Both the position numbers and the translations under genes were made by a program. From positions 1 to 64,000 of the forward strand of contig CALLMM010000033.1 in NCBI GenBank assembly GCA_938005745.1: a DNA stretch of 64,000 nucleotides. The letters run 5' to 3'. The notes beneath the pieces are model-generated. The model did no database searches and was not told where the DNA came from. It was given only the letters and a program-made list of their open reading frames with translations. Of the stretch, positions 6,453-17,572 are shown in pieces (the first letter of the stretch is position 1; each line of letters opens with the position of its first letter). Origin of the DNA: an uncultured Chthonomonadales bacterium (GTDB taxonomy: Bacteria; Armatimonadota; Chthonomonadetes; Chthonomonadales; CAJBBX01).

Positions 6453-7634
6453 CTATTTTGCCGGGGGGATCGGAAGATCGTAGAGGAGAATACGGTAGGT
6501 CCAGAGCCAGGCGAAGTCGGGGGGAGGCGTCTCAAACGAGTCGGCGACCGACAGCGCCAGCGTCAGCCGATCCTCCTGCGCGAGCCGCCCGCGCGCATCT
6601 CTGCCGAGCGCGGCGTTATGGTTGCGGCTCCATCCGGTGGTCTCCCTGCCGATCGTCGCCACCACGCGCCAGACGCCACGACCGGCACGCAGGTCTTCCG
6701 CCGCCATCTCCGCCACCTGCACATAGGAGGAGATGAAGCCGGGAAATCGGGTGTCTGTATGCAGCTCTCCCTCCCGCGTTATGTAGAGGCGTTTGCGGGA
6801 AGGGGAGAAGGCGAGGGAGATATTGCGGGGATAGGCGATCGGCTTTCCTCCGACGGTCGTCAGTCCGGCGGCAGGAACCCGTATCGGCGGGCTGAGGCGC
6901 GGTCCGGCGTCCATGTCGGAGAGGTCTGCCGTAACCATCTCCTGCCCATGCGTCTCCTCCCCGCGGGTGTAGCACAGGAGAGCCTTGCCGGCTCCGTCCA
7001 GCGAGACGGCGGCGGGCTGTCCGACGCCCCAGTAGCGGTAGACGGGGAATCCGTGCGCTTCGCCGATCCTGCCGCCTTCGGGGTGCGTCGTGTAGCGGAT
7101 AATCGGCTCCGGATACTTTCTCCAGGGACCCTCCAGACGGTTGGCGAACGCGACCCCCACCTGATTATGCGTGCTGCTCTCCGCGTCGCATCCCAGATAG
7201 AAGAGCGCGTATCGCCACGTCCTGCCCTGATAGCGGAAGCGTCCCGCCAGCGCCTCCGGATCGCAGACGTGCCGGCTGTCCCAGTCGGTCTTCGCCTCGC
7301 CGGGCGCAAGGATCGCCCGCTCCTCTCCCCACTGCCAGCCTGACCGCGTGCGCGTCCCGATCCGCAGGCAGAGGTAGTCGGTGACCGATCCCGGCTCGCG
7401 GTTGGCGCAGTAGAAGAGGTAGCGGCGTTTCCCGCCCTCCTCTTCGAGGAGAGAGGGCGCATAGGCGTAGGTGCGTTCGCGGGGATAAAATGCCGGTTCC
7501 ATACGCGGGACCGCATCCGGGTGGGGCGATGGCGTCTGCCCGCTCTGCCGGGACAGTCCGGCAGGCGGCAGGCAGAGGATCGCCGTCAGACAGAGCAGCG
7601 CAGGAAGAGGAGGGCGACCCCGAAGGCATCGCAT
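6453..7634 (-). CDS. Secreted beta-propeller-like protein, possibly glycosidase-related
   Basis: The 393-residue protein from the ATG at 7634 has a signal peptide (LPALLCLTAILCLPPAG). The body has regularly spaced 'YAPSLLEEEGGKRRYLFYC', 'RYALFYLGCD', 'NQVGVAFAN', 'PAAVSLDGAGKALLCYT' and 'RNISLAFSPSRKRLYITR' segments. This 'source-and-sink' W/Y-L-F-Y pattern resembles five-bladed propellers of GH43/32-like and DUF4185-like proteins. I cannot point to a confident catalytic triad. The start lies 20 bases after the stop of the upstream UroD-like gene, so it is the last gene of that operon. Function in glycan or plant-material metabolism is inferred only from the neighbours. Confidence 0.65.
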   Translation of the reverse strand: MRCLRGRPPLPALLCLTAILCLPPAGLSRQSGQTPSPHPDAVPRMEPAFYPRERTYAYAPSLLEEEGGKRRYLFYCANREPGSVTDYLCLRIGTRTRSGWQWGEERAILAPGEAKTDWDSRHVCDPEALAGRFRYQGRTWRYALFYLGCDAESSTHNQVGVAFANRLEGPWRKYPEPIIRYTTHPEGGRIGEAHGFPVYRYWGVGQPAAVSLDGAGKALLCYTRGEETHGQEMVTADLSDMDAGPRLSPPIRVPAAGLTTVGGKPIAYPRNISLAFSPSRKRLYITREGELHTDTRFPGFISSYVQVAEMAAEDLRAGRGVWRVVATIGRETTGWSRNHNAALGRDARGRLAQEDRLTLALSVADSFETPPPDFAWLWTYRILLYDLPIPPAK

Positions 7635-7653
7635 CTGTCCGCCCCGGATCATC

Positions 7654-8721
7654 CTACGTCTGCCGCCCGTAGCGCCACGCCTCGTCATACATGGCAAGGA
7701 TGTTTTCGAGGGGCGTGTTCGGCTGCAGGTTGTGGCAGGGAGCCACAATATAGCCCGTGCCGTCGCTTGCCAGCGTGTCTATGCAGGCGCGCACCTCGGC
7801 GCGCACCTCCTCCGGCGTGCCGAACGGCAGAATCCGCTGGTTTTCGACCCCGCCGTGAAAGCAGATGCGGTCGCCGAACTCCCGCTTCAGTTGCGCCCGA
7901 TCCATGCCGGGACAGGTCCACTGGATCGGATTGAGGATATCTATCCCCATCTCGACCAGACGCGGCAGGAAGACCCGGCAGCTTCCGTCGTCGTGATGGA
8001 AGACCTTGATGCCGAATGCATGACACAGGTTGATGAAACGCCGGTGATGCTCCGCATAGAAGGCGTCGTAGATCTTCGGGCTGATGAGCGGACCGGTCTG
8101 GCTCCCGAGATCGTCGGTTACCTGCGCCACATCAATCAAGCCGTCGCACGCCTCGAAAGCGCGCCGGTGATGCTCGTAGAAAAAGTCGCTGATACGGCGC
8201 AGGATCTCATGCGTGAACTCGGGATCGTCGTAGGGGTCCGTCAACGAGCGTTCCAGACCACGCAGAAGGTTATGATAGTAGAAGGGAGCCATGTAGCCGA
8301 ACGTGACCAGATGCGTTTTTCGCGCCTCCTGCGCCTGCGCGCGCATCTTGGAGTAGTCGAACCAGTCCGCCCGGGGCCAGCGGTAGCGGTCGAGGTCGTC
8401 TATCGTTTTCGCCTCCGCCAGCGGATAGAAGACCTGCTCCTCATAGATGCCGTCCGCGTAGGGAGTGCGACGCATCACCATGCCCCAGTAGTTCGCGCTC
8501 TCTCCCGGACCGACGGCGGGGGGCGCGGGACCGCAGTAGTCCGGCGCGATCCCGCGCGTCCCGTCAATGTGCAGCGCCGCCAGAATGTCCGCACCTTCGC
8601 TGAAGTGGGCGCGCAGCTTCTCCCATACCTCGGCGGTCGCCCAGATGTCGGTCGGGATGCGGTCTACCGGCTTGCGCTCTATGGCGGCGAGCATGCGCTC
8701 GCGTGCGTTCATCTCCTCCAT
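7654..8721 (-). CDS. UroD-like methyltransferase family protein A
   Basis: The 355-residue protein starts MEEMNARERMLAAIERKPVDRIP, the classic opening of uroporphyrinogen-decarboxylase-like proteins. Later segments are 'YDDPEFTHEILRRI', 'DVAQVTDDLGSQTG', 'FHHDDGSC', 'ILNPIQWTCPGMD', 'HGGVENQRILPFGTPEEV' and 'YIVAPCHNLQPNTPLENI'. The HHDDG region and the Cys of 'APC' sit where corrinoid methyltransferases of this fold place zinc ligands, so methyl transfer is likelier than porphyrin decarboxylation. No heme-pathway neighbours are present. The start overlaps the upstream stop as TGATG, and GAGG lies 7 bases before. Substrate unknown. Confidence 0.85.
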   Translation of the reverse strand: MEEMNARERMLAAIERKPVDRIPTDIWATAEVWEKLRAHFSEGADILAALHIDGTRGIAPDYCGPAPPAVGPGESANYWGMVMRRTPYADGIYEEQVFYPLAEAKTIDDLDRYRWPRADWFDYSKMRAQAQEARKTHLVTFGYMAPFYYHNLLRGLERSLTDPYDDPEFTHEILRRISDFFYEHHRRAFEACDGLIDVAQVTDDLGSQTGPLISPKIYDAFYAEHHRRFINLCHAFGIKVFHHDDGSCRVFLPRLVEMGIDILNPIQWTCPGMDRAQLKREFGDRICFHGGVENQRILPFGTPEEVRAEVRACIDTLASDGTGYIVAPCHNLQPNTPLENILAMYDEAWRYGRQT

Positions 8722-9950
8722 CACCGCGCCTCGATCAGGTCGCGCGTCATCTCGACCCATTTTCGCAGTCGGGGACGGTCTCCGTTGATCCGGTAGACAT
8801 CGCGGAAGATGATCTCCAGATTGCACCCGCGAAACGCCGCCAGCGTCTCGACGATGTCCTGCCGCAGAGCGTCCCAGTCGGGCGTGTCGCCGGAGATCGG
8901 CGCGGGGCGCGGCTTGCGCGAGAAGACGACGCTCCGCCCCGCCATCTCCGCCATCTTCGCTTTGTCGCACCAGGGAGAGATGGAGACGGCGCGAATGTGG
9001 GGGATCGCCGCGATGATCCGCTCCCAGCGGTCATGCACCGGCTCGCAGCAGCCGTAGTAGATCAGCCCGAACCTTTCGCAGACCGCCGCCATGCTGGGAA
9101 GGAAGAACTCGCCGAACATCCGGGGCGAGATGCAGACGGTCTCCTGCGACTCCATCCAGAGCCACAGGTCCTTCAGGCGCGCCGGTCCGGAGGAGGGCGG
9201 CGGGAGCGAGGTGGTGTAGCCGGGGCTTCCCGAACCGACGAAGGTCCAGAGGTTGTTCGATCCCAGCAGCCCCTCCCGCTCCATCCAGTCGAACATCGCC
9301 AGACGGTCATCGCGCAAATATGCCATGAGCCGGCGGATCGCCTCCGGTTCATCGTAGAGCCAGGTCAGCAGGCGGTCGTTGCCGATCAGCCGGTAGAGGT
9401 CGCTGGTGAGTCCGGCGTGAAGCGCGGTGGAGCCGTGCAGGACGACCGGCAGCAGATCGCCGAAAGTCTCCGTCAGACGCTCCGCCTTGCGGTTGGTGGA
9501 GGCGCGGTCCACCTCCCAGATTCGCGGCTGAAGCCGGTCTATTTCCTCGGGAGAGCGGATGGGGTGATCGAAGGCGTATCCGACATGCCCGCCCTGAACG
9601 TCCACCGCATGGGTCACGGGAATTTCCACACCGTGGCCGGTGGCGCGAATGTCCCATCCGATACGCCAGCAGGGTTCCACAACGGTATCGTCGCCGATCT
9701 CCTCCGCCTGCCGGATCGTTGCGAGCATACTCCCCTCCACGCTCCGGAGGAGGGGGTCTTCGCACTGAAGCTCCCGCTCCGACACGTAGTCCTCCAGCGT
9801 CCAGGTCTCAAACAGAACCATCGGACGCTCGGCGCGCAGGTCTTTCAGCGCGGTCCACTGCCGCCTGCGCTCCTGCATGATCGGCTGTTCGGCGATCTCT
9901 CTCCAGCGCGCCGCCAGGGCGCGTATGCGACTGCGATCCTTTGCTCGCAT
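8721..9950 (-). CDS. UroD-like methyltransferase family protein B
   Basis: A 409-residue, more divergent member of the UroD fold. Recognisable parts are 'TWTLEDYVSERELQCEDPLLR', 'HAVDVQGGHVGYAFDHPI', 'LHGSTALHAGLTSDLYRLIGNDRLLTWLYDEPEAI', 'GLIYYGCCEPVHDRW' and 'IRAVSISPWCDKAKMAEM'. The Gly-Cys-Cys-Glu motif is common in predicted corrinoid-linked family members. Its zinc-site residues differ from proteins A and C, so it should use another substrate or partner. The ATG at 9950 lies 19 bases after the SDR stop, and its stop overlaps the start of protein A, implying coupled translation. No corrinoid-binding protein is encoded nearby. Confidence 0.75.
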   Translation of the reverse strand: MRAKDRSRIRALAARWREIAEQPIMQERRRQWTALKDLRAERPMVLFETWTLEDYVSERELQCEDPLLRSVEGSMLATIRQAEEIGDDTVVEPCWRIGWDIRATGHGVEIPVTHAVDVQGGHVGYAFDHPIRSPEEIDRLQPRIWEVDRASTNRKAERLTETFGDLLPVVLHGSTALHAGLTSDLYRLIGNDRLLTWLYDEPEAIRRLMAYLRDDRLAMFDWMEREGLLGSNNLWTFVGSGSPGYTTSLPPPSSGPARLKDLWLWMESQETVCISPRMFGEFFLPSMAAVCERFGLIYYGCCEPVHDRWERIIAAIPHIRAVSISPWCDKAKMAEMAGRSVVFSRKPRPAPISGDTPDWDALRQDIVETLAAFRGCNLEIIFRDVYRINGDRPRLRKWVEMTRDLIEAR

Positions 9951-9969
9951 GGGTATGCCATCGTGCCGG

Positions 9970-10725
9970 CTACATGCCCGCCTGCGTGATTCTTCCGCCC
10001 GTAACCGGCAGGTATGCGCCGGTAACATAGGAAGCGAGGTCGCTCAGGAAGAAGACGCAGCCGTTGCCGATCTCCTCCGCGCTGCCGTGCCGCCGCAGCG
10101 GGAGGGTCTTGGCGAAGTTGCGCGATCCCTCCGATTCGGTGTTGACCTTCTCATCCGCCATCCAGCCGGGAGCCACCATATTGACGGTGATGTTCTCCGG
10201 ACCGAGTTCACACGCCAGCGAGCGCGACAGCCCCACCATCGCGCCCTTTCCCGCCATGTAGACCGACCAGCCGGCAGGGGCAAGGTTCCACAGCTCGGTG
10301 ACGATGTTCACGATCCGACCGCCGCCCTGCCGGTTGAAGACGGGACGCGCCGCAGTGATGGTGTTGACGACCGCCCTGCAGCCAAAATCGAAGGAGTTGG
10401 CGTAGTCTGCCCAGCTCGCTTCGCTCAGCGTGCCGCTCTGCCTTCCGGCGATCGCGTTATTGACCACGCCGTCCAGACGCCCGAACGTCTTCACCACAGC
10501 GTCTATCATGGCGGTTACGGCGTCCGGGTCGCGGACATCCGCACTGAACGCCTGCGCCTTCCCTCCCTCGGCGACGATCTGCGCGACCACCGCCTCCGCC
10601 TTCTCTTTGCTGGCGGAGTAGTTGACGGCGACGGTCGCTCCATGACGCGCCAGCACGCGCGAGATCGCCGCCCCGATGCCCCGTCCTCCGCCGGTTACCA
10701 GAACCACTTTTCCTGACAACAACAT
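9970..10725 (-). CDS. Short-chain dehydrogenase/reductase
   Basis: The 251-residue enzyme has the classical SDR pattern: cofactor motif TGGGRGIG at residues 11-18, Asp-Val at 63-64, NNA at 89-91 and the catalytic YxxxK as Tyr156 and Lys160. The usual catalytic Ser position reads IVTE, with Thr143 the only hydroxyl residue there. 'LACELGPENITVNMVAPGW' and 'TGAYLPVTGG' complete the fold. The best start is the ATG at 10725, preceded by GAGGAGG. It heads a four-gene minus-strand operon with two UroD-like proteins and a secreted propeller-like protein. The substrate is probably a sugar or alcohol, by context only. Confidence 0.92.
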   Translation of the reverse strand: MLLSGKVVLVTGGGRGIGAAISRVLARHGATVAVNYSASKEKAEAVVAQIVAEGGKAQAFSADVRDPDAVTAMIDAVVKTFGRLDGVVNNAIAGRQSGTLSEASWADYANSFDFGCRAVVNTITAARPVFNRQGGGRIVNIVTELWNLAPAGWSVYMAGKGAMVGLSRSLACELGPENITVNMVAPGWMADEKVNTESEGSRNFAKTLPLRRHGSAEEIGNGCVFFLSDLASYVTGAYLPVTGGRITQAGM

Positions 10726-10838
10726 GATCGCCTCCTCACTCTCTGAAAGATCGTTTCCGGACAAAACGGCTGTTGTCTCATCATTCGGCTTTCGGGGGAG
10801 GAACCCCTTTTTCGATGGGAGTCGGAGTGCGCAGCGGC

Positions 10839-11948
10839 TCAGTAGTCCCGATGCGCTTCATAGACCTCCAGGGCGTACCGGTAGCTGTCGTAGCGCACGT
10901 TCGGGGTGACGGAGTGATCGGTTCCGAAGACATACCGGGCGTTGCGCGCCTTCATGCCCTCGATAATCTCCGAGACGCCCCGGCGGATCGTCTCCCGGTC
11001 GTTGCTCTCCAGGATCCGCACGTCCAGCCCGCCGATGAATGCCAGATCGTCGCCGTACTGCTCGGCGAAGGCGAACAGATCGCATCCCGCCTTCACCTCC
11101 ATCGGGTTGAGCGCGTCGAACCCGGCTTCGACGATGAGGGGAAGGGCTTTCGTGATGCCGCCGCAGGAGTGCAGCACCACCGGCAGGTCGTATTCGTGGA
11201 AGAAGGCGACCAGTTCGGCAAAGTAGGGGAAGATAAGCTGCTGGAGGAGGCGGGGCGAGGCGAACAGACCGTTGCGGTATCCCAGGTCTTCATAGACCCA
11301 TATGCCGTCTGGCAGTCCCGCCTGCTCAAAGAGGGCGCGGTAGTGGGCTTTAAAGAAGTCGGTGTAGACGCGGTTGTAGTCGTGAATCCAGCCCGGATCG
11401 AGCGCGAGGCTCTCATACATGGTGATGTCGCCCATGCTCTGGCGCATCGTCTCGAAGATAAACAGGTGCCCGTAGAAGGTCCAGCGGTGTTCGGCGCGTC
11501 CGGCTTCCAGCGCGCGCCGGTGGGCGGGAATGTCCATGCGCTGCGGGTCCACCGACAGCAGATAGTGGCGATAGTCACGCTCCCAGATCTCCCGACTGGT
11601 CATCCGAAAGTCTATATGCTCCGGCGTGCCGGACTTATGCTTCCAGTATTTGAGCGCGGCGCCTGCCCCGTTACGCACCACCTGCCACTCGTCGGTCTCT
11701 TCCAGCACTTCGCGATAGCCGCGCAGGGGGTTCACATCGAACCATCCGCCGCAGGGACGCATATCGAAGCCGAAGAAGACCGCGGGATCTGCTGGAGGGG
11801 TCTCCGTGTCCGAGGGGCTGCCGTCGGCGGTCGGGTAGCCCTGATCGAGCCACAGGCGGGGCGTCTCGGGCCAGAAGTGGTCGAACAGCCCGACACGGTC
11901 CGGGCAGCCTTTGCGAAGCAGCTGGTTGATCCGCGTCTGTGAGTCCAT
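10839..11948 (-). CDS. UroD-like methyltransferase family protein C
   Basis: This 369-residue protein opens MDSQTRINQLLRKGCPDRVGLFDHFWPET, as UroD-like proteins do, after AGGAGGAG. Hallmarks are 'DFRMTSREIWERDY', 'IWVYEDLGYRNGLFASPRLL', 'PVVLHSCGGITKALP', 'ALNPMEVKAGCDLF', 'FIGGLDVRILESNDRETI' and 'YVFGTDHSVTPNV'. His-Ser-Cys matches the His-x-Cys zinc motif of MtaA-type methylcobamide methyltransferases, but the usual late Cys is replaced in 'FGTDHS'. It lies 113 bases upstream of the SDR operon and downstream of the tRNA genes. It is the third family member within 4.3 kb. Confidence 0.87.
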   Translation of the reverse strand: MDSQTRINQLLRKGCPDRVGLFDHFWPETPRLWLDQGYPTADGSPSDTETPPADPAVFFGFDMRPCGGWFDVNPLRGYREVLEETDEWQVVRNGAGAALKYWKHKSGTPEHIDFRMTSREIWERDYRHYLLSVDPQRMDIPAHRRALEAGRAEHRWTFYGHLFIFETMRQSMGDITMYESLALDPGWIHDYNRVYTDFFKAHYRALFEQAGLPDGIWVYEDLGYRNGLFASPRLLQQLIFPYFAELVAFFHEYDLPVVLHSCGGITKALPLIVEAGFDALNPMEVKAGCDLFAFAEQYGDDLAFIGGLDVRILESNDRETIRRGVSEIIEGMKARNARYVFGTDHSVTPNVRYDSYRYALEVYEAHRDY

Positions 11949-11975: not shown

Positions 11976-12008
11976 GGCGCTCCCGCCGGATCCGCCGGCA
12001 GGAGCGCC
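11976..12008 (-). terminator. Hairpin after the tRNA genes
   Basis: GGCGCTCC (11976-11983) pairs with GGAGCGCC (12001-12008). The intervening bases form a further G+C-rich stem. On the minus strand GTTTC follows, a poor U-tract, so termination of the tRNA transcript is probably incomplete and could feed UroD-like gene C. Confidence 0.45.
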
Positions 12009-12117: not shown

Positions 12118-12189
12118 AGCGGGAGACGGGTTTCGAACCCGCGACCTCCTCCTTGGCAAGGAGGCGCTCTACCACTGAGCTACTCCCGC
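12118..12189 (-). tRNA. tRNA-Gly (GCC)
   Basis: Acceptor strands GCGGGAG/CTCCCGC, D stem GCTC/GAGC, anticodon stem CCTCC/GGAGG with loop TTGCCAA, and T arm GCGGG-TTCGAAA-CCCGT all pair. The anticodon is GCC and the discriminator is U. The 3' CCA is not encoded. It is transcribed after tRNA-Leu, 19 bases downstream of it. Confidence 0.97.
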
Positions 12190-12208
12190 ATCGCTCTTTA
12201 CGGCGCGG

Positions 12209-12292
12209 TGGTGGGCGAGAGGAGAGTCGAACTCCTACGCCTTTCGGCACTAGTTCCTAAGACTAGCGTGTCTGCCATTCCACCACTCGCCC
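12209..12292 (-). tRNA. tRNA-Leu (TAG)
   Basis: A class II tRNA with acceptor GGGCGAG/CTCGCCC, anticodon stem CTAGT/ACTAG enclosing CTTAGGA (anticodon TAG), a long variable arm (GCC-GAAA-GGC) and T arm AGGAG-TTCGACT-CTCCT-like pairing. The discriminator is A and CCA is encoded (12209-12211). It is the first gene of a two-tRNA unit. Confidence 0.96.
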
Positions 12293-12329
12293 GATGGGAT
12301 ACGGCACGGCTGATCAGACAACGGAAGAG

Positions 12330-12358
12330 ATTATATCACGCTCTGGTTTCCCTGTCAA
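12330..12358 (-). promoter_or_regulatory. Perfect sigma70 promoter of the tRNA-Leu/tRNA-Gly unit
   Basis: On the minus strand TTGACA (12358-12353) and TATAAT (12335-12330) are separated by exactly 17 bases. Both hexamers match consensus. The -35 lies just past the end of the glycosidase gene stop codon at 12363. Confidence 0.9.
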
Positions 12359-12362
12359 GGCT

Positions 12363-15300
12363 TTATCGCACTGGAATCAGGGCGCGAAACAGCGCGCCGT
12401 TCTCCATCCGCGCATTCCATATGTCCGCCTGCTCGTCCGTGTCGTAGGTCCAGTGCAGAAAGCCGACGAATCCCCTTTCCAGTACGCGCCGGATGTGCTT
12501 CGTCAGCAGGTCTGCCGCCCGCTCCGCCGTTGGGACCGCGCCTTTGAAGACTCCGCACTCTCCCATCAGGATCGGTTTCCCGGCGTGCCGGCAGGCTTCG
12601 CGCACCGCCTCCCATTCGACGCTCTTCAAGTCGCGCTCCAGGCTCGCCTCATCGAGTGAGTAGAGATGGATGTCCAGATAGGAGAGGCGGGTCTGCGCCA
12701 GCGCCAGCGGGCGCGCGGGAAAGCGCGGGTCGGGACTGCGGTCCTGTGTGAGGCGGCTCGGACCGGTGCGACCGACGGCGGCGAACGTGAAGACGTTCGC
12801 GCTGATCATCGCCTCCGGGTCCACACGGCGAACCGCCTCAACGCAGGCGTCCGCTAGCGCCTGCGTTCCGGCGTCCGCCAGTCGCTGCAGGTCGTCGTCG
12901 GAGGTCAGAGAGTAGCTCTTTCCCTGAAAGACGACCGATCCGTGCCGGGTGGAGAAGGGCGGCTTCGTCGCCATCAGATGGGTCTCGTTGTCCAGTTCAT
13001 AGGCGAAGACAGTGGAGAGCAGCCCCCGATCATGCCGCACAATGGCGGCGGCGAAGTCCGCCATATACCGCGCTTTGGCGGCGATGAATCCCGGATGCAG
13101 CAGCGCGAGGTTTCCGCCCTCTACTCCAGCAGGCCCGGGCTGATCCGGACGATACGGAGGCGTATCGGGCAGGTAGCACATGGCGAAGATCACATAGAGG
13201 CGAAGCCGGCGGGCGCGGGCAAGAAAGTCGCAGACGTTCGCCATATAGGCGGGGGACAGCTCCTGCGCCTCTTTCGTCGCCACGCTGCCCGCGTTCGGCA
13301 TCGGATCTATGAAGACACGGACGGTGTTGAAGCCGTTTGCGGCGATGTCGGCGAGAGCCGCTTCGACCCTCTCCGGGCGGTAGCTGTTCGGGTTGAAGGT
13401 GTCGTGCCAGAGATAGCCCACATCGCGTGTCCGGATGTAGTTGAAGCCCCGCGGGCGGAAGACCTTTCCGGTCTTCGCTTCGACGAACTGTCCGCTGCGC
13501 GCCGTGATGCGCGGCAGAGGAGTGGATTTCGCGGGGGCGGGCTTGACCACAATCATGATCCCGTCGCGCGCCGGCACCTCCGCAATAACCGGGAATCTGC
13601 GTCCGTCGGCGGCGGGCATCGCGACGCAACCGCCGGGAGTCGTCTGCTGCAGGCTCCACCGGTTCGCCCTGCCCATAGCGTATCGGTCGGCGTCCAGCAG
13701 GAGGGAGATGCGGTGTGGGCGGGTATCGGCGTTGGCGACAAGCAGGGCGTAGCTGCCGTCTCGCCCTCTCCAGAGCGCAGCGTGGACGGCTTTGAGGGTT
13801 ACCTCGCGGTCTCCCTGCCAGGTGTTCCAGCGTCCGGTGAGATCGGGAAGATCGTTCTGGGGGCGTAGGATGGCGAGCAGTTCGCCGTAGACCAGGTAGT
13901 CGCCGGCGATCGCGCGCAGCCGCGCCAGGCGTCCCTGAAACTCCAGCTTGGCGGCATGTTCCGGCGCGATGATGTCCGCGCCCTCCCATCCAAGCTGAGT
14001 CCCCCAGACGAAATCGCGCGCCTGACAGAGAGCGAACGCCGTATCTCCGCCCGCTAGGGCGCGATTGCTGGCGAAGTAGAGCGTGTAGCCGCTGTAGACC
14101 GCCGTGGTCATCGGAATCTCGTGTTGTTCGCGGGGAGTCCAGGTGAGGAAGGCGTCCACATTGTCCATATACGGTTCGGCGTCGTTCTCGGTGGTCAGCC
14201 CGACCTGCCGCTCCGCCGAAGCCGCCCATCGCTTGATGGGGGTGAGCATCTGGCGATAGCCGTCCACCCACCAGCGCCCGGAGCCGAGGGGATGCCCGTG
14301 TACCGGATCGAAGCAGAGGCGCGGCGGGGCGGAGGCGATCTGATCGAGATAGACGGCGTTGACCCCGTACTCCTCACCCAGACGCCGGATGATCTGCGCC
14401 ACCCGCTCCTGCCAGAAGGCTTGCGTCGGACACATCACCGCCAGCTTCGCGCCGGAGCCGTACTCTTCGATGACGGGGTTGCCCTGCGGGTCCTTCGCGC
14501 TGTGAGGCTTTGCCTGCGGGAACTCCCGATTGCCGGAATCCCAGAGGCGAGCGTTCATGTAGGGCATCACCGTCACGCCCTCGCGCTGCAGTTCCGCCAC
14601 GCCCTCTGCAAAGCCGGGCTTGACGGGGAAGTAGGCGGGGTAGTCGGTATCGAACGGGATCTGATGCCAGTTGTACCAGTGTACGCCGACTGGCGCGCCG
14701 ACCGCCTGCGCGAACCGGCGCACCGTCGGAACCACCTGCTCCCGGTCTCCCCATCCGACGATCCAGGCGCAGACCTTTTTCATCGCCTCCGGAACGTCGC
14801 TCCGTTTTGCCAGAGGACCCTTTTTCGTCCAGGGAGCCGACTTTAACGCCCAGGCGCGGTACCGCTTGCAGCCGACGATCCAGTCGCCGCGATAGACTCC
14901 GAGGGCGAAGGCGTAGGGAGCGTTCCAGCTGCTGCCGGGCTGTCCCATGTTCTCCGCCCAGGTGTTCACGTGAAACTCGCCCCCGGGCGTCAGCGAGAAC
15001 TGCTTGGGGCGCGCGTCGGGATCGTGCGCCGCCAGATAGAGACCGCGATCGCCCTCCAGCAGCAGCATGAATTGCATCGGCATGTTGTGCGAGGGGTACT
15101 CTCCGGCGATGGTCTGTGTCGCTGCGGCGTAGAGTTCGCCCCAGTTGCCGCGCCCGATGGCGATGTCCGCCTTACCCGCCTCTGCGATCGGCGCGATCAC
15201 CGGAAACTGCACGCCCCACAGCCCGGACTGCCGGCTGCGGTTGCTTACCCACAGCCGCATCTGCGCCGTATCACCGGACGAGCTGAGACGACAGGAGACG

Positions 15301-15641
15301 CGCGCCGAAAACGCGCCCGGCTCCTCCGGCAGATTCACGCGCTCCCAGCGCAGAATAATCTCGCCGGACCTGGTCTCTATCTTCGGAGGAGCTGCCTGCG
15401 CGTTGTCCATTTTGACTTCGCTGCCGTCTGCGCGGCGAAAGGTCAGCCGCCACAGCAGGGGCTTGGGCTCGACGCGGCGCATAAAGGCGTGTCCGTTCGA
15501 TCCGACGATGGCGGCGAGACCGCCCGTCTGCGGGCTGAACTCCAGCGTTAAGCCGTTTCCGGTGATCTGCATGGCGGTTCCTTTCTCAGTGAGTGAGAGG
15601 CATAATAGCGATGTCAGAATGAGAGCTGCTTGCAGCTTCAT
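12363..15641 (-). CDS. Secreted two-barrel glycoside hydrolase-like protein (DUF6259-like plus GH5-like)
   Basis: A 1,092-residue protein with signal peptide MKLQAALILTSLLCLSL. Residues about 25-300 form a beta-rich domain. Residues about 300-600 form a first barrel: 'GVHWYNWHQIPFD', 'VMPYMNARLWDSG', 'VNAVYLDQIAS' (candidate nucleophile Asp) and 'LTTENDAEPYMDN' (candidate acid Glu), as in DUF6259/GH36-like proteins. From about residue 715, 'RGFNYIRTRDVGYLW' opens a second, clan-A barrel with 'VFAYELDNETHL' and 'PILMGECGVFKG', the expected acid/base and nucleophile Glu positions of GH5-like enzymes. GAGG precedes the ATG. It is divergent from the GH10 gene. Substrate is unknown; plant cell wall glycans fit the neighbour. 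Confidence 0.82.
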   Translation of the reverse strand: MKLQAALILTSLLCLSLTEKGTAMQITGNGLTLEFSPQTGGLAAIVGSNGHAFMRRVEPKPLLWRLTFRRADGSEVKMDNAQAAPPKIETRSGEIILRWERVNLPEEPGAFSARVSCRLSSSGDTAQMRLWVSNRSRQSGLWGVQFPVIAPIAEAGKADIAIGRGNWGELYAAATQTIAGEYPSHNMPMQFMLLLEGDRGLYLAAHDPDARPKQFSLTPGGEFHVNTWAENMGQPGSSWNAPYAFALGVYRGDWIVGCKRYRAWALKSAPWTKKGPLAKRSDVPEAMKKVCAWIVGWGDREQVVPTVRRFAQAVGAPVGVHWYNWHQIPFDTDYPAYFPVKPGFAEGVAELQREGVTVMPYMNARLWDSGNREFPQAKPHSAKDPQGNPVIEEYGSGAKLAVMCPTQAFWQERVAQIIRRLGEEYGVNAVYLDQIASAPPRLCFDPVHGHPLGSGRWWVDGYRQMLTPIKRWAASAERQVGLTTENDAEPYMDNVDAFLTWTPREQHEIPMTTAVYSGYTLYFASNRALAGGDTAFALCQARDFVWGTQLGWEGADIIAPEHAAKLEFQGRLARLRAIAGDYLVYGELLAILRPQNDLPDLTGRWNTWQGDREVTLKAVHAALWRGRDGSYALLVANADTRPHRISLLLDADRYAMGRANRWSLQQTTPGGCVAMPAADGRRFPVIAEVPARDGIMIVVKPAPAKSTPLPRITARSGQFVEAKTGKVFRPRGFNYIRTRDVGYLWHDTFNPNSYRPERVEAALADIAANGFNTVRVFIDPMPNAGSVATKEAQELSPAYMANVCDFLARARRLRLYVIFAMCYLPDTPPYRPDQPGPAGVEGGNLALLHPGFIAAKARYMADFAAAIVRHDRGLLSTVFAYELDNETHLMATKPPFSTRHGSVVFQGKSYSLTSDDDLQRLADAGTQALADACVEAVRRVDPEAMISANVFTFAAVGRTGPSRLTQDRSPDPRFPARPLALAQTRLSYLDIHLYSLDEASLERDLKSVEWEAVREACRHAGKPILMGECGVFKGAVPTAERAADLLTKHIRRVLERGFVGFLHWTYDTDEQADIWNARMENGALFRALIPVR

Positions 15642-15739
15642 GGCGTTACCTCACGGATGGACATCATCTTCGCTTTCGGCAGGAAACTTGACGAAAGGTT
15701 GTGAAAAAGATCGCAGACATGAGCAAAGAGAGGACCGAA

Positions 15740-17572
15740 ATGCGACTACGCCTGTTTGTATCCGCCTGTCTGCTGTTTGGCGCGGCTTCCGCGTTGTCGG
15801 GGCAGAGTGCCGATCCCGGCATGACCGGCTATCTCGCGCAGATACGCCGTCTGCTGCCGACGCCGGGCGAAACCTGGTTCGATCCCTCCGACCTGAGCCG
15901 TATCAGCGTGGGGGGCGTGCCGCAGTATGCGCGCGCCTCCATCGTTGCGGTCGAGGGTCAGCCGTTCCAGAGAGCGGTACGGGCGGAGGTGCATATGCGG
16001 GGCGAAACCCCCTACAGCTCGCAGTTACAGTTTCCGGCGAACGCCCGTCCGATCAGGAAAGGCGACGTGATCTTCTTTACATTCAACATCCGATGCCTGC
16101 ATTCCCGCCATGAATCGGGAGAGGGAGTCTGGGCGATGTATCTGCAGAGCAACGGTCCGCCCTGGACGACCTACTACTCCACGCAGGGCAGTGCGGGAAG
16201 AGCCTGGCGTCGCTGCTACTACTACACGGTGGCCGAGCGGGACTTTGCGCCTGACGAGGTCGGGCTGACGTTTCATATCTCTCAGAACGCCCAGACGCTA
16301 GAGTTCGGCGGGATGATCGTGCTGAATCTGGGTTCGCTGGCGGACGCCTCGCGCCTGCCGGTTACGCGCCTGACCTATCCGGGGAGCGAGCCAAACGCCC
16401 CCTGGCGCAGAGCGGCGGCGCAGCGAATCGAGCGGTACAGAAAAGGGAGCCTTTCTGTGCAGGTTACCGACCGGCGCGGCAGACCGCTCTCCGGCGCGCG
16501 CGTCTCGGTGCGCATGAAACGCCACGCCTATGAGTTCGGCTCCTTTGCCGAGCAGCCGATCCTTGCCAACACACCGGACGGCGCGAAGTACCGGGAGTGG
16601 TTTCTGAAGCTCTACAACAAGGCGACCTGCCCCATGTATAACGCCGACTGGGGATGGGAGAGTCCGCAGTCACGGAAGGACTATCTGGGGATCGCCGAAT
16701 GGCTGCAGAAGAACCGGATTCCCACCAAAGCCCATGTGCTGATCTATCCCGGCTGGCAGTTCATGCCGACCCGCTGGAAGTCGCTGGAGAAGGACCCGCC
16801 CGCCCTGCGCCAGGCGATCTACGCCCACATCCGCGAGATCATGGCTGCCACCGCGCGGTTCCGTTTTGCCGGCTGGGATATCATCAACGAGACCCGCGAC
16901 CTGCGCGACCTGCCCGCCGTCTTCGGCAGCGACGTGATCTATGCGGACATCTTCAAGCAGGCGCGTGCGGCAAACGCCCACTCCCGGTTCTTCATCAATG
17001 AGAACACCATTCTGACCAACGGCGGGCAGACGGAGCTTCAGCAGGAGATCTACGAGCGGATGATCCGGTATCTGCTGGATCAGGGAGCGGCGGTGGAAGC
17101 CATCGGGATGCAGGGGCATATGGGCGAGTCGCTGACCCCTCCGGAGCGCGTGGTGCAGATACTCGACCGCTTCGCCCGGTTCAAACTGCCCATCCAGATC
17201 ACCGAATGGGACCTGCCGACCCGCGATGAGATCACGCAGGCGGCGTATACCCGCGACTTCATGACCGCCTTCTTCAGCCACCCCGCCACCACCGGCTTCA
17301 CCATGTGGGGATTCTGGGAGGGGCACATGTGGCAGCCTCTGGGCGCGATGATCCGCAAAGACTGGAGCCTCAAGCCCAACGGCAGAGCCTATCTCGATCT
17401 CGTCTACCGGGAGTGGTGGACGAACGCGGACGGGAAGACGGATCGGCGAGGAGGTTATGCCGTGCGCGGATTTCTGGGCGACTATGCGGTGACGGTAACC
17501 CATCGCGGGAAGAGCAGAACGGTTCCGGTCTCGCTGAAGCGTCCCGGCACGCGGGTAACGATCGCGTTATAG
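15740..17572 (+). CDS. GH10 endo-1,4-beta-xylanase-like secreted enzyme
   Basis: The 610-residue protein starts with signal peptide MRLRLFVSACLLFGAASALSG. An N-terminal carbohydrate-binding-like beta-sandwich (about 60-230) precedes a GH10 barrel (about 240-560). 'WDIINETRDL' carries the acid/base Glu384 and 'IQITEWDLP' the nucleophile Glu489, both in canonical context. 'YNADWGWESPQ', 'IPTKAHVLIYPGW' and 'AIGMQGHMG' are further GH10 landmarks. A short beta domain ends the protein. I chose the ATG at 15740 because AGAGGA lies before it and the signal peptide starts there; 15701 would add 13 residues. It converges with the P-loop gene, overlapping by 6 bases. Confidence 0.92.
   Translation: MRLRLFVSACLLFGAASALSGQSADPGMTGYLAQIRRLLPTPGETWFDPSDLSRISVGGVPQYARASIVAVEGQPFQRAVRAEVHMRGETPYSSQLQFPANARPIRKGDVIFFTFNIRCLHSRHESGEGVWAMYLQSNGPPWTTYYSTQGSAGRAWRRCYYYTVAERDFAPDEVGLTFHISQNAQTLEFGGMIVLNLGSLADASRLPVTRLTYPGSEPNAPWRRAAAQRIERYRKGSLSVQVTDRRGRPLSGARVSVRMKRHAYEFGSFAEQPILANTPDGAKYREWFLKLYNKATCPMYNADWGWESPQSRKDYLGIAEWLQKNRIPTKAHVLIYPGWQFMPTRWKSLEKDPPALRQAIYAHIREIMAATARFRFAGWDIINETRDLRDLPAVFGSDVIYADIFKQARAANAHSRFFINENTILTNGGQTELQQEIYERMIRYLLDQGAAVEAIGMQGHMGESLTPPERVVQILDRFARFKLPIQITEWDLPTRDEITQAAYTRDFMTAFFSHPATTGFTMWGFWEGHMWQPLGAMIRKDWSLKPNGRAYLDLVYREWWTNADGKTDRRGGYAVRGFLGDYAVTVTHRGKSRTVPVSLKRPGTRVTIAL

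Follow-up and report, generated by a model that had tools for sequence, protein, structure and literature searches.

Three genes for proteins of the uroporphyrinogen decarboxylase (UroD) fold, here called UroD-A, UroD-B and UroD-C, were found in an operon-like run of five genes within a 64,000-nucleotide stretch of DNA (the window) from an uncultured Chthonomonadales bacterium of the phylum Armatimonadota (assembly GCA_938005745.1, contig CALLMM010000033.1, positions 1 to 64,000). The explanation that we favor, with a probability of about 0.55, is that these three proteins are accessory corrinoid-linked methyltransferases sharing one carrier protein whose gene lies at another site of the genome. 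At the family level, methyl transfer is the general role with the best support. The observed basis consisted of the operon-like layout, the fold, the metal-site motifs, a supercluster of corrinoid genes at C1 in the same genome, the co-occurrence of UroD genes with the corrinoid activase RACo, and, in other phyla, the linkage of corrinoid proteins to some genes of the family to which UroD-B belongs (the B family).

Fold and putative metal sites of the three proteins

The five open reading frames were consecutive on the minus strand and in the transcription order UroD-C, SDR-family oxidoreductase, UroD-B, UroD-A and secreted propeller-type protein, with intergenic distances of 113, 19, -1 and 1 bases. 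One base was common to the stop codon of UroD-B and the start codon of UroD-A (TGATG, in the context GTGATGG), which confirmed the one-base overlap of two UroD genes described in an earlier, sequence-only reading of this DNA. The draft genome, 4.26 Mb in size and 94% complete, includes the window as its contig 33. With random placement in this genome, the chance of three of the 29 UroD-type genes falling within five consecutive genes was low (P ~0.008), a value tempered by the clustering of UroD-type genes at further sites.

UroD-A (7654..8721, minus strand, 355 amino acids) and UroD-C (10839..11948, minus strand, 369 amino acids) passed the curated cut-off of the Pfam URO-D family (PF01208, 23.9 bits) with 96.2 and 56.1 bits, respectively. 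UroD-B (8721..9950, minus strand, 409 amino acids, with the start taken as the in-frame ATG at 9950, MRAKDR) belongs to a distant UroD-fold family with the motif YGCC(E/D) and reached 15.7 bits; it was assigned to the superfamily by its predicted fold. The AlphaFold model of UroD-B (pLDDT 96.6) was matched by Foldseek to human UROD (E 1.6e-8) and to MtaA (4ay8, E 5.7e-5) with a probability of 1.00, and the TM-scores by query length against solved UroD and MtaA structures were 0.43-0.57. According to this model, UroD-B has the UroD fold. The model of UroD-A (pLDDT 96.0) was matched to UROD (5e-14), to MtaA (4.7e-13) and, more weakly, to cobalamin-independent methionine synthase (1e-6). The previous claim of three paralogues of one fold thus held for UroD-A and UroD-C by PF01208, but UroD-B, under the cut-off, could be counted among them only by its predicted structure.

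The fold is common to HemE, but the scores were far below the cut-off of the HemE model TIGR01464 (302.95 bits), with 16.7 bits for UroD-A, 22.4 bits for UroD-C and no match for UroD-B, and no HemE over this cut-off was found in the 94% complete genome. A role in heme biosynthesis was rejected on these grounds, and a heme route, if any, must follow another pathway or lie within the missing part of the genome. The MtaA/CmuA model (TIGR01463, cut-off 235.4 bits; PDB 4ay7) was matched by UroD-A at 4e-15, but this match amounted to 56 bits (20.8 bits for UroD-C), the identity of UroD-A to MtaA in the structural alignment was only ~16-18%, the zinc ligands differed and coenzyme M is not expected. 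A recent tandem duplication of the three genes was also rejected, since UroD-A and UroD-C fell in separate clades and UroD-B lay outside the PF01208 profile. The three proteins represent ancient, distinct subfamilies.

The putative metal sites were compared with the reference motifs of MtaA, LHICGN followed by APGCGIAPMTP. UroD-A contained HHDDG at residue 242 (FHHDDG) and APCHNLQ at residue 327 (APCHNLQPNTP), UroD-B contained YGCCE at residue 299, and UroD-C contained HSCGG at residue 260 (LHSCGG) and later GTDHSVTP. In the ungapped alignment to MtaA, the position of the third zinc ligand was occupied by the His of P-C-H in UroD-A and likewise by a His in UroD-C (TDHS). In place of the zinc set His-x-Cys...Cys of MtaA and the Mlp proteins, the sites accordingly read His-x-Asp...His in UroD-A, His-x-Cys...His in UroD-C and YGCCE in UroD-B. 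The motif letters of the three zinc-site versions had been given correctly in the first reading, but the late Cys that it assigned to UroD-A lies one residue before the aligned His. Further variants (His-x-Cys, His-x-Asp and Asp-x-Asp) were found across the genome, where the complete MtaA set HxC...C is kept by one protein of C1; thus, the three versions in the operon are a sample of a genome-wide diversity.

In this superfamily, the characterised S-methyltransferases possess a His-Cys-Cys site, whose Cys residues (one or both) give way to carboxylates or non-coordinating residues in the O-methyltransferases (PMC10418091). Because His-x-Asp replaces the His-Cys-Cys of the S-methyltransferases, the motif of UroD-A points towards oxygen-bound methyl groups as its probable target. 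The cysteines of YGCC(E/D) were invariant in 62/62 relatives of UroD-B within the phylum. In a wider set, both cysteines were present in 74/74 sequences and followed by Glu or Asp; this set was fetched by a pattern containing YGCC, and only the figure of 62/62 is independent of the search. A Cys-Cys-Glu metal site was not found described for the UroD superfamily in the literature.

Corrinoid genes of the genome and co-occurrence in Armatimonadota

The genome contained 26 matches to PF01208 and three B-family genes. The methyltransferase-type B12 domain (PF02607) was present in a MetH-sized protein of 1236 amino acids, in a protein of 347 amino acids and in a small carrier at C1:447188. A 17-kb supercluster begins at this carrier (G000:C1:447179-464050; locus L001:2180-19051) and also includes genes for MtaB (529 bits), UroDs, a B-family protein, a homocysteine methyltransferase, DUF1638, an MtaA-like protein and RACo (C1:463349), one of the UroD genes overlapping the B-family gene by 4 bases. 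The carrier and the reductive activase that corrinoid methyltransferases generally require are both encoded in this genome. The earlier statement that no corrinoid protein is near was hence correct for the locus, but not for the genome. Apart from the MetH-sized protein, only one further frame encoded a pterin-binding enzyme, presumably FolP, and no stand-alone pterin methyltransferase of the kind present in MtgBCDE systems was recognised in the genome. For this reason, homocysteine or another thiol is more likely to be the methyl acceptor than folate via a dedicated second methyltransferase.

The distribution of these genes was analyzed in 101 Armatimonadota genomes, which were split by the presence of a UroD-A match at E <= 0.001 (72 with, 29 without). 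RACo was scored as PF14574, and the stand-alone corrinoid protein as PF02607 in a frame of 200-300 amino acids. RACo was detected in 70 of the 72 UroD-positive genomes and in none of the 29 UroD-negative ones (Fisher P 3e-23); one of the two positive genomes lacking it was 64% complete and the other had a single UroD match. Among the matches listed, a stand-alone corrinoid protein was present in 61/72 versus 0/29 genomes (P 1e-16). The B-family genes were distributed over 52 genomes, RACo-positive throughout. Kinship was controlled by within-family comparison only; the split by UroD presence recurred inside three families (f1, f3 and f24), so it does not reflect one deep divide. The Wood-Ljungdahl pathway was rejected as the reason for RACo in most genomes, since a strong CdhD match was obtained in only 15 of the 70 RACo-positive genomes (55/70 without) and CdhD was absent from the genome of the window. 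Stand-alone carriers, among the matches listed, numbered one or two in most genomes, versus tens of UroD candidates.

In the mechanism that we propose, UroD-A, UroD-B and UroD-C would be enzymes of the methyltransferase-I type. Each would probably act on a methylated compound of its own and demethylate it onto the Co(I) corrinoid of the stand-alone carrier (G000:C1, ~447.2 kb). The single RACo would keep this carrier active, and its unloading would fall to the homocysteine methyltransferase or to the MtaA-like protein in the C1 cluster. We infer the use of the C1 carrier by these three copies, the direction of the transfer and the O-methyl type of the substrate; methylated sugars or aromatics are possible candidates. 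For the sharing of a carrier there is a precedent in Ruegeria pomeroyi, where a single MtgC acts both in the demethylation of glycine betaine and in methionine synthesis, alongside RamA and DUF1638 (PMC12478193). The C1 cluster carries the same kinds of helper genes, although the demethylase of Ruegeria is MtgB and not a UroD, whereas the candidates here are dozens of UroD-family proteins.

Several observations weigh against this proposal. The operon in the window contained no gene for a corrinoid protein, an activase or a methyl acceptor, and no corrinoid-carrier neighbours were seen at the loci read of the UroD-A, UroD-B and UroD-C orthologues. In 11 UroD-positive genomes, some of them incomplete, no stand-alone corrinoid protein was present among the matches listed. 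The co-occurrence could also derive from a common cause, such as an anaerobic lifestyle, instead of a direct partnership. Finally, zinc-free relatives such as CdmB are known (PMC13222342), and the metal sites proposed here are putative, as deduced from motifs.

The YGCC(E/D) family in other phyla

A scan of genome contigs with the sequence of UroD-B alone gave no match, and a profile of the B family succeeded, yielding at least 585 confirmed loci, of which 80 were kept. These were distributed among Planctomycetota, Verrucomicrobiota, Spirochaetota, Chloroflexota, Bacillota, Bacteroidota, Latescibacterota and others. Hence, the YGCC(E/D) family is an unnamed family present in many phyla. A same-strand UroD gene directly adjoined the B-family gene in 13/67 loci outside Armatimonadota. 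Within this phylum, a UroD gene was the neighbour in only a handful of ~60 loci.

Corrinoid proteins were encoded at four of the B-family loci outside Armatimonadota. In L141 the order was B-family gene, pterin methyltransferase and corrinoid carrier; in L167 the B-family gene was accompanied by a carrier, two UroDs, a homocysteine methyltransferase and a UroD-thioredoxin fusion; in L197 by a UroD and a carrier; and in L194 by a UroD and a UroD-carrier fusion. UroD-C was placed in a clade with the UroDs near the B-family genes of L167, L183 and L197 (support 100/99), from Fibrobacterota and Bacillota, so the pairing of B plus C recurs beyond Armatimonadota, in few cases.

Two of the proteins encoded at these loci had an unusual domain composition. 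The product of L194:8981-10828, from a Spirochaetes metagenome-assembled genome, has 615 amino acids and joins a UroD domain to a complete corrinoid carrier in a CmuA-like layout. In the corrinoid cluster of L167, from Chitinivibrionales, a UroD domain (193 bits) is followed by a Thioredoxin_3 domain (L167:10971-12683).

The B-family neighbours (n=88) included regulators of the AraC, LacI and GntR types, two RhaT transporters and single GH106, GH127 and GH35 enzymes. As judged from gene content, the sugar-type regulators and RhaT hint at sugar-linked substrates for this family. The AraC/LacI-type regulators, RhaT and the three glycoside hydrolases would also suit an explanation without methyl transfer, in which the UroD-like proteins act on sugars or sugar acids as TIM-barrel lyases, decarboxylases or isomerases and the corrinoid-linked paralogues are unrepresentative. 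The loss of canonical ligands in many superfamily members here (e.g., Asp-x-Asp) and the lack of corrinoid neighbours at the orthologue loci agree with it as well. Nevertheless, we consider this explanation unlikely in view of the co-occurrence with RACo (70/72 versus 0/29), the restriction of the B family to RACo-positive genomes, the direct corrinoid, pterin-methyltransferase and homocysteine-methyltransferase neighbours, and the UroD/corrinoid fusion. Methyl transfer as the general role, already suggested from the sequence, was reinforced, as UroD paralogues, including B-family genes, keep company in this genome and in other phyla with genes for corrinoid proteins, MtaB, RACo and the homocysteine and pterin methyltransferases, and as the presence of the family coincides with RACo across the 101 genomes.

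The five-gene neighbourhood and known corrinoid systems

The sequence-only reading had united the three UroDs, the SDR and the propeller in one dedicated pathway, possibly for plant-derived methoxy compounds or methylated glycans, and had named a lack of conservation of the neighbourhood as the result that would speak against it. The tight operon-like run of five genes, the likeness of the propeller to glycosidase propellers, and a DUF6259/GH5-like protein and a GH10 xylanase nearby are in its favor. The gene-neighbourhood search that it proposed was run, and no conservation was found. The orthologues of UroD-A, UroD-B, UroD-C and the propeller, traced in 100 relatives, were scattered, and a conserved five-gene neighbourhood was rejected. 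The best orthologues of UroD-A, UroD-B and UroD-C (up to 68%, 63% and 64% identity, respectively) and the others in the range of 50-68% were on separate contigs beside unrelated genes, and Pfam tallies within the phylum revealed no common flanking family among their loci beyond pairs or triples. The propeller was also present in UroD-free genomes. A dedicated five-gene pathway is therefore unsupported and, in our judgment, highly improbable, and the five-gene set looks specific to this lineage.

The propeller gene (6453..7652, minus strand) encodes a distant GH43/GH117-like protein whose secretion was deduced from the N-terminus. It had no Pfam match, and its hits in the PDB were 3p2n, a 3,6-anhydro-L-galactosidase (E 2e-4), and 3qz4 (E 1.7e-3). 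Orthologues were detected in 10/100 relatives, including two genomes (G034 and G046) without any UroD-A match. The propeller is probably co-transcribed with the UroDs, and a functional tie to them is not supported. The SDR (9970..10725, minus strand, 251 amino acids; PF13561 5e-52, PF00106 1e-44) remained under every NCBIfam cut-off shown and may oxidize an exposed hydroxyl.

Upstream of the operon, tRNA-Leu and tRNA-Gly genes (12118-12358, minus strand) are located between a glycoside hydrolase gene and UroD-C, preceded by a perfect sigma-70-like promoter (TTGACA-17-TATAAT, 12358-12330). A strong GC stem-loop (11976..12008, minus strand), recognised by consensus scan only and with a weak T-run, lies between tRNA-Gly and UroD-C and likely sets the tRNA unit apart from the UroD operon. 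Given the promoter of the tRNA pair and this stem-loop, the five genes probably form a transcription unit of their own. Just upstream of the tRNA pair, a protein of 1092 amino acids (12363-15641, minus strand) joins DUF6259 and a GH5-like (Cellulase) domain. A GH10 xylanase (15701-17572, plus strand) distantly matches a bifunctional xylanase/feruloyl esterase model.

The previous assertion that no described pathway has this composition was too strong, since corrinoid demethylases of the UroD superfamily and clusters with several UroDs have been described (PMC10418091, PMC13222342, PMC8630106). The O-demethylases and dehalogenases MtvB, OdmB, VdmB, MtoB and CdmB belong to the former (PMC13222342, PMC8630106); they share the UroD superfamily with the proteins of the window, a likeness noted without direct sequence comparison to MtvB, OdmB or CdmB. 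The layout of three-component O-demethylases is matched by the B-family locus L141, with its corrinoid protein and pterin-binding methyltransferase, but not by the operon in the window, which has no carrier or second methyltransferase. A literature search for Armatimonadota with corrinoid methyltransferases or a UroD expansion found nothing.

The type 1 mlp clusters, which combine several UroD paralogues with a corrinoid protein and a Ram/RACE activase (Kountz and Balskus, PMC10418091), are comparable to the C1 cluster; the operon in the window differs from them in having no carrier, activase or His-Cys-Cys site. By analogy with them, S- or Se-methyl metabolism or methionine salvage could take the place of O-demethylation. 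The homocysteine methyltransferase and the MtaA-like HxC...C protein of the C1 cluster, as well as the His-x-Cys retained in UroD-C, would fit such a function, but the His-x-Asp of UroD-A, the Cys-Cys-Glu site of UroD-B and the third-position His in UroD-A and UroD-C depart from the near-invariant His-Cys-Cys of the Mlps (PMC10418091), and we regard this alternative as very unlikely.

In the favored explanation of corrinoid-linked methyltransferases with a shared carrier, the mechanism itself is of a known kind, and the novelty lies in the B family and in the apparent hub of one carrier with dozens of enzymes. As a more tentative extension, which we hold to be possible but not probable, one stand-alone carrier and one RACo would be served, in Armatimonadota and in the other phyla with the B family, by tens of diversified, scattered UroD-family methyltransferases, including the B family with its Cys-Cys-Glu site, each specific for another methylated compound of plants or microbes. 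Because the family co-occurs so sharply with a single activase, this idea lends itself to a direct test. If it is true, many genes annotated as 'uroporphyrinogen decarboxylase' would serve to demethylate compounds from plants, algae or microbes, and the YGCC(E/D) family (at least 585 loci in one collection, in many phyla), whose member in the window is under the Pfam cut-off, would add a new group to these enzymes.

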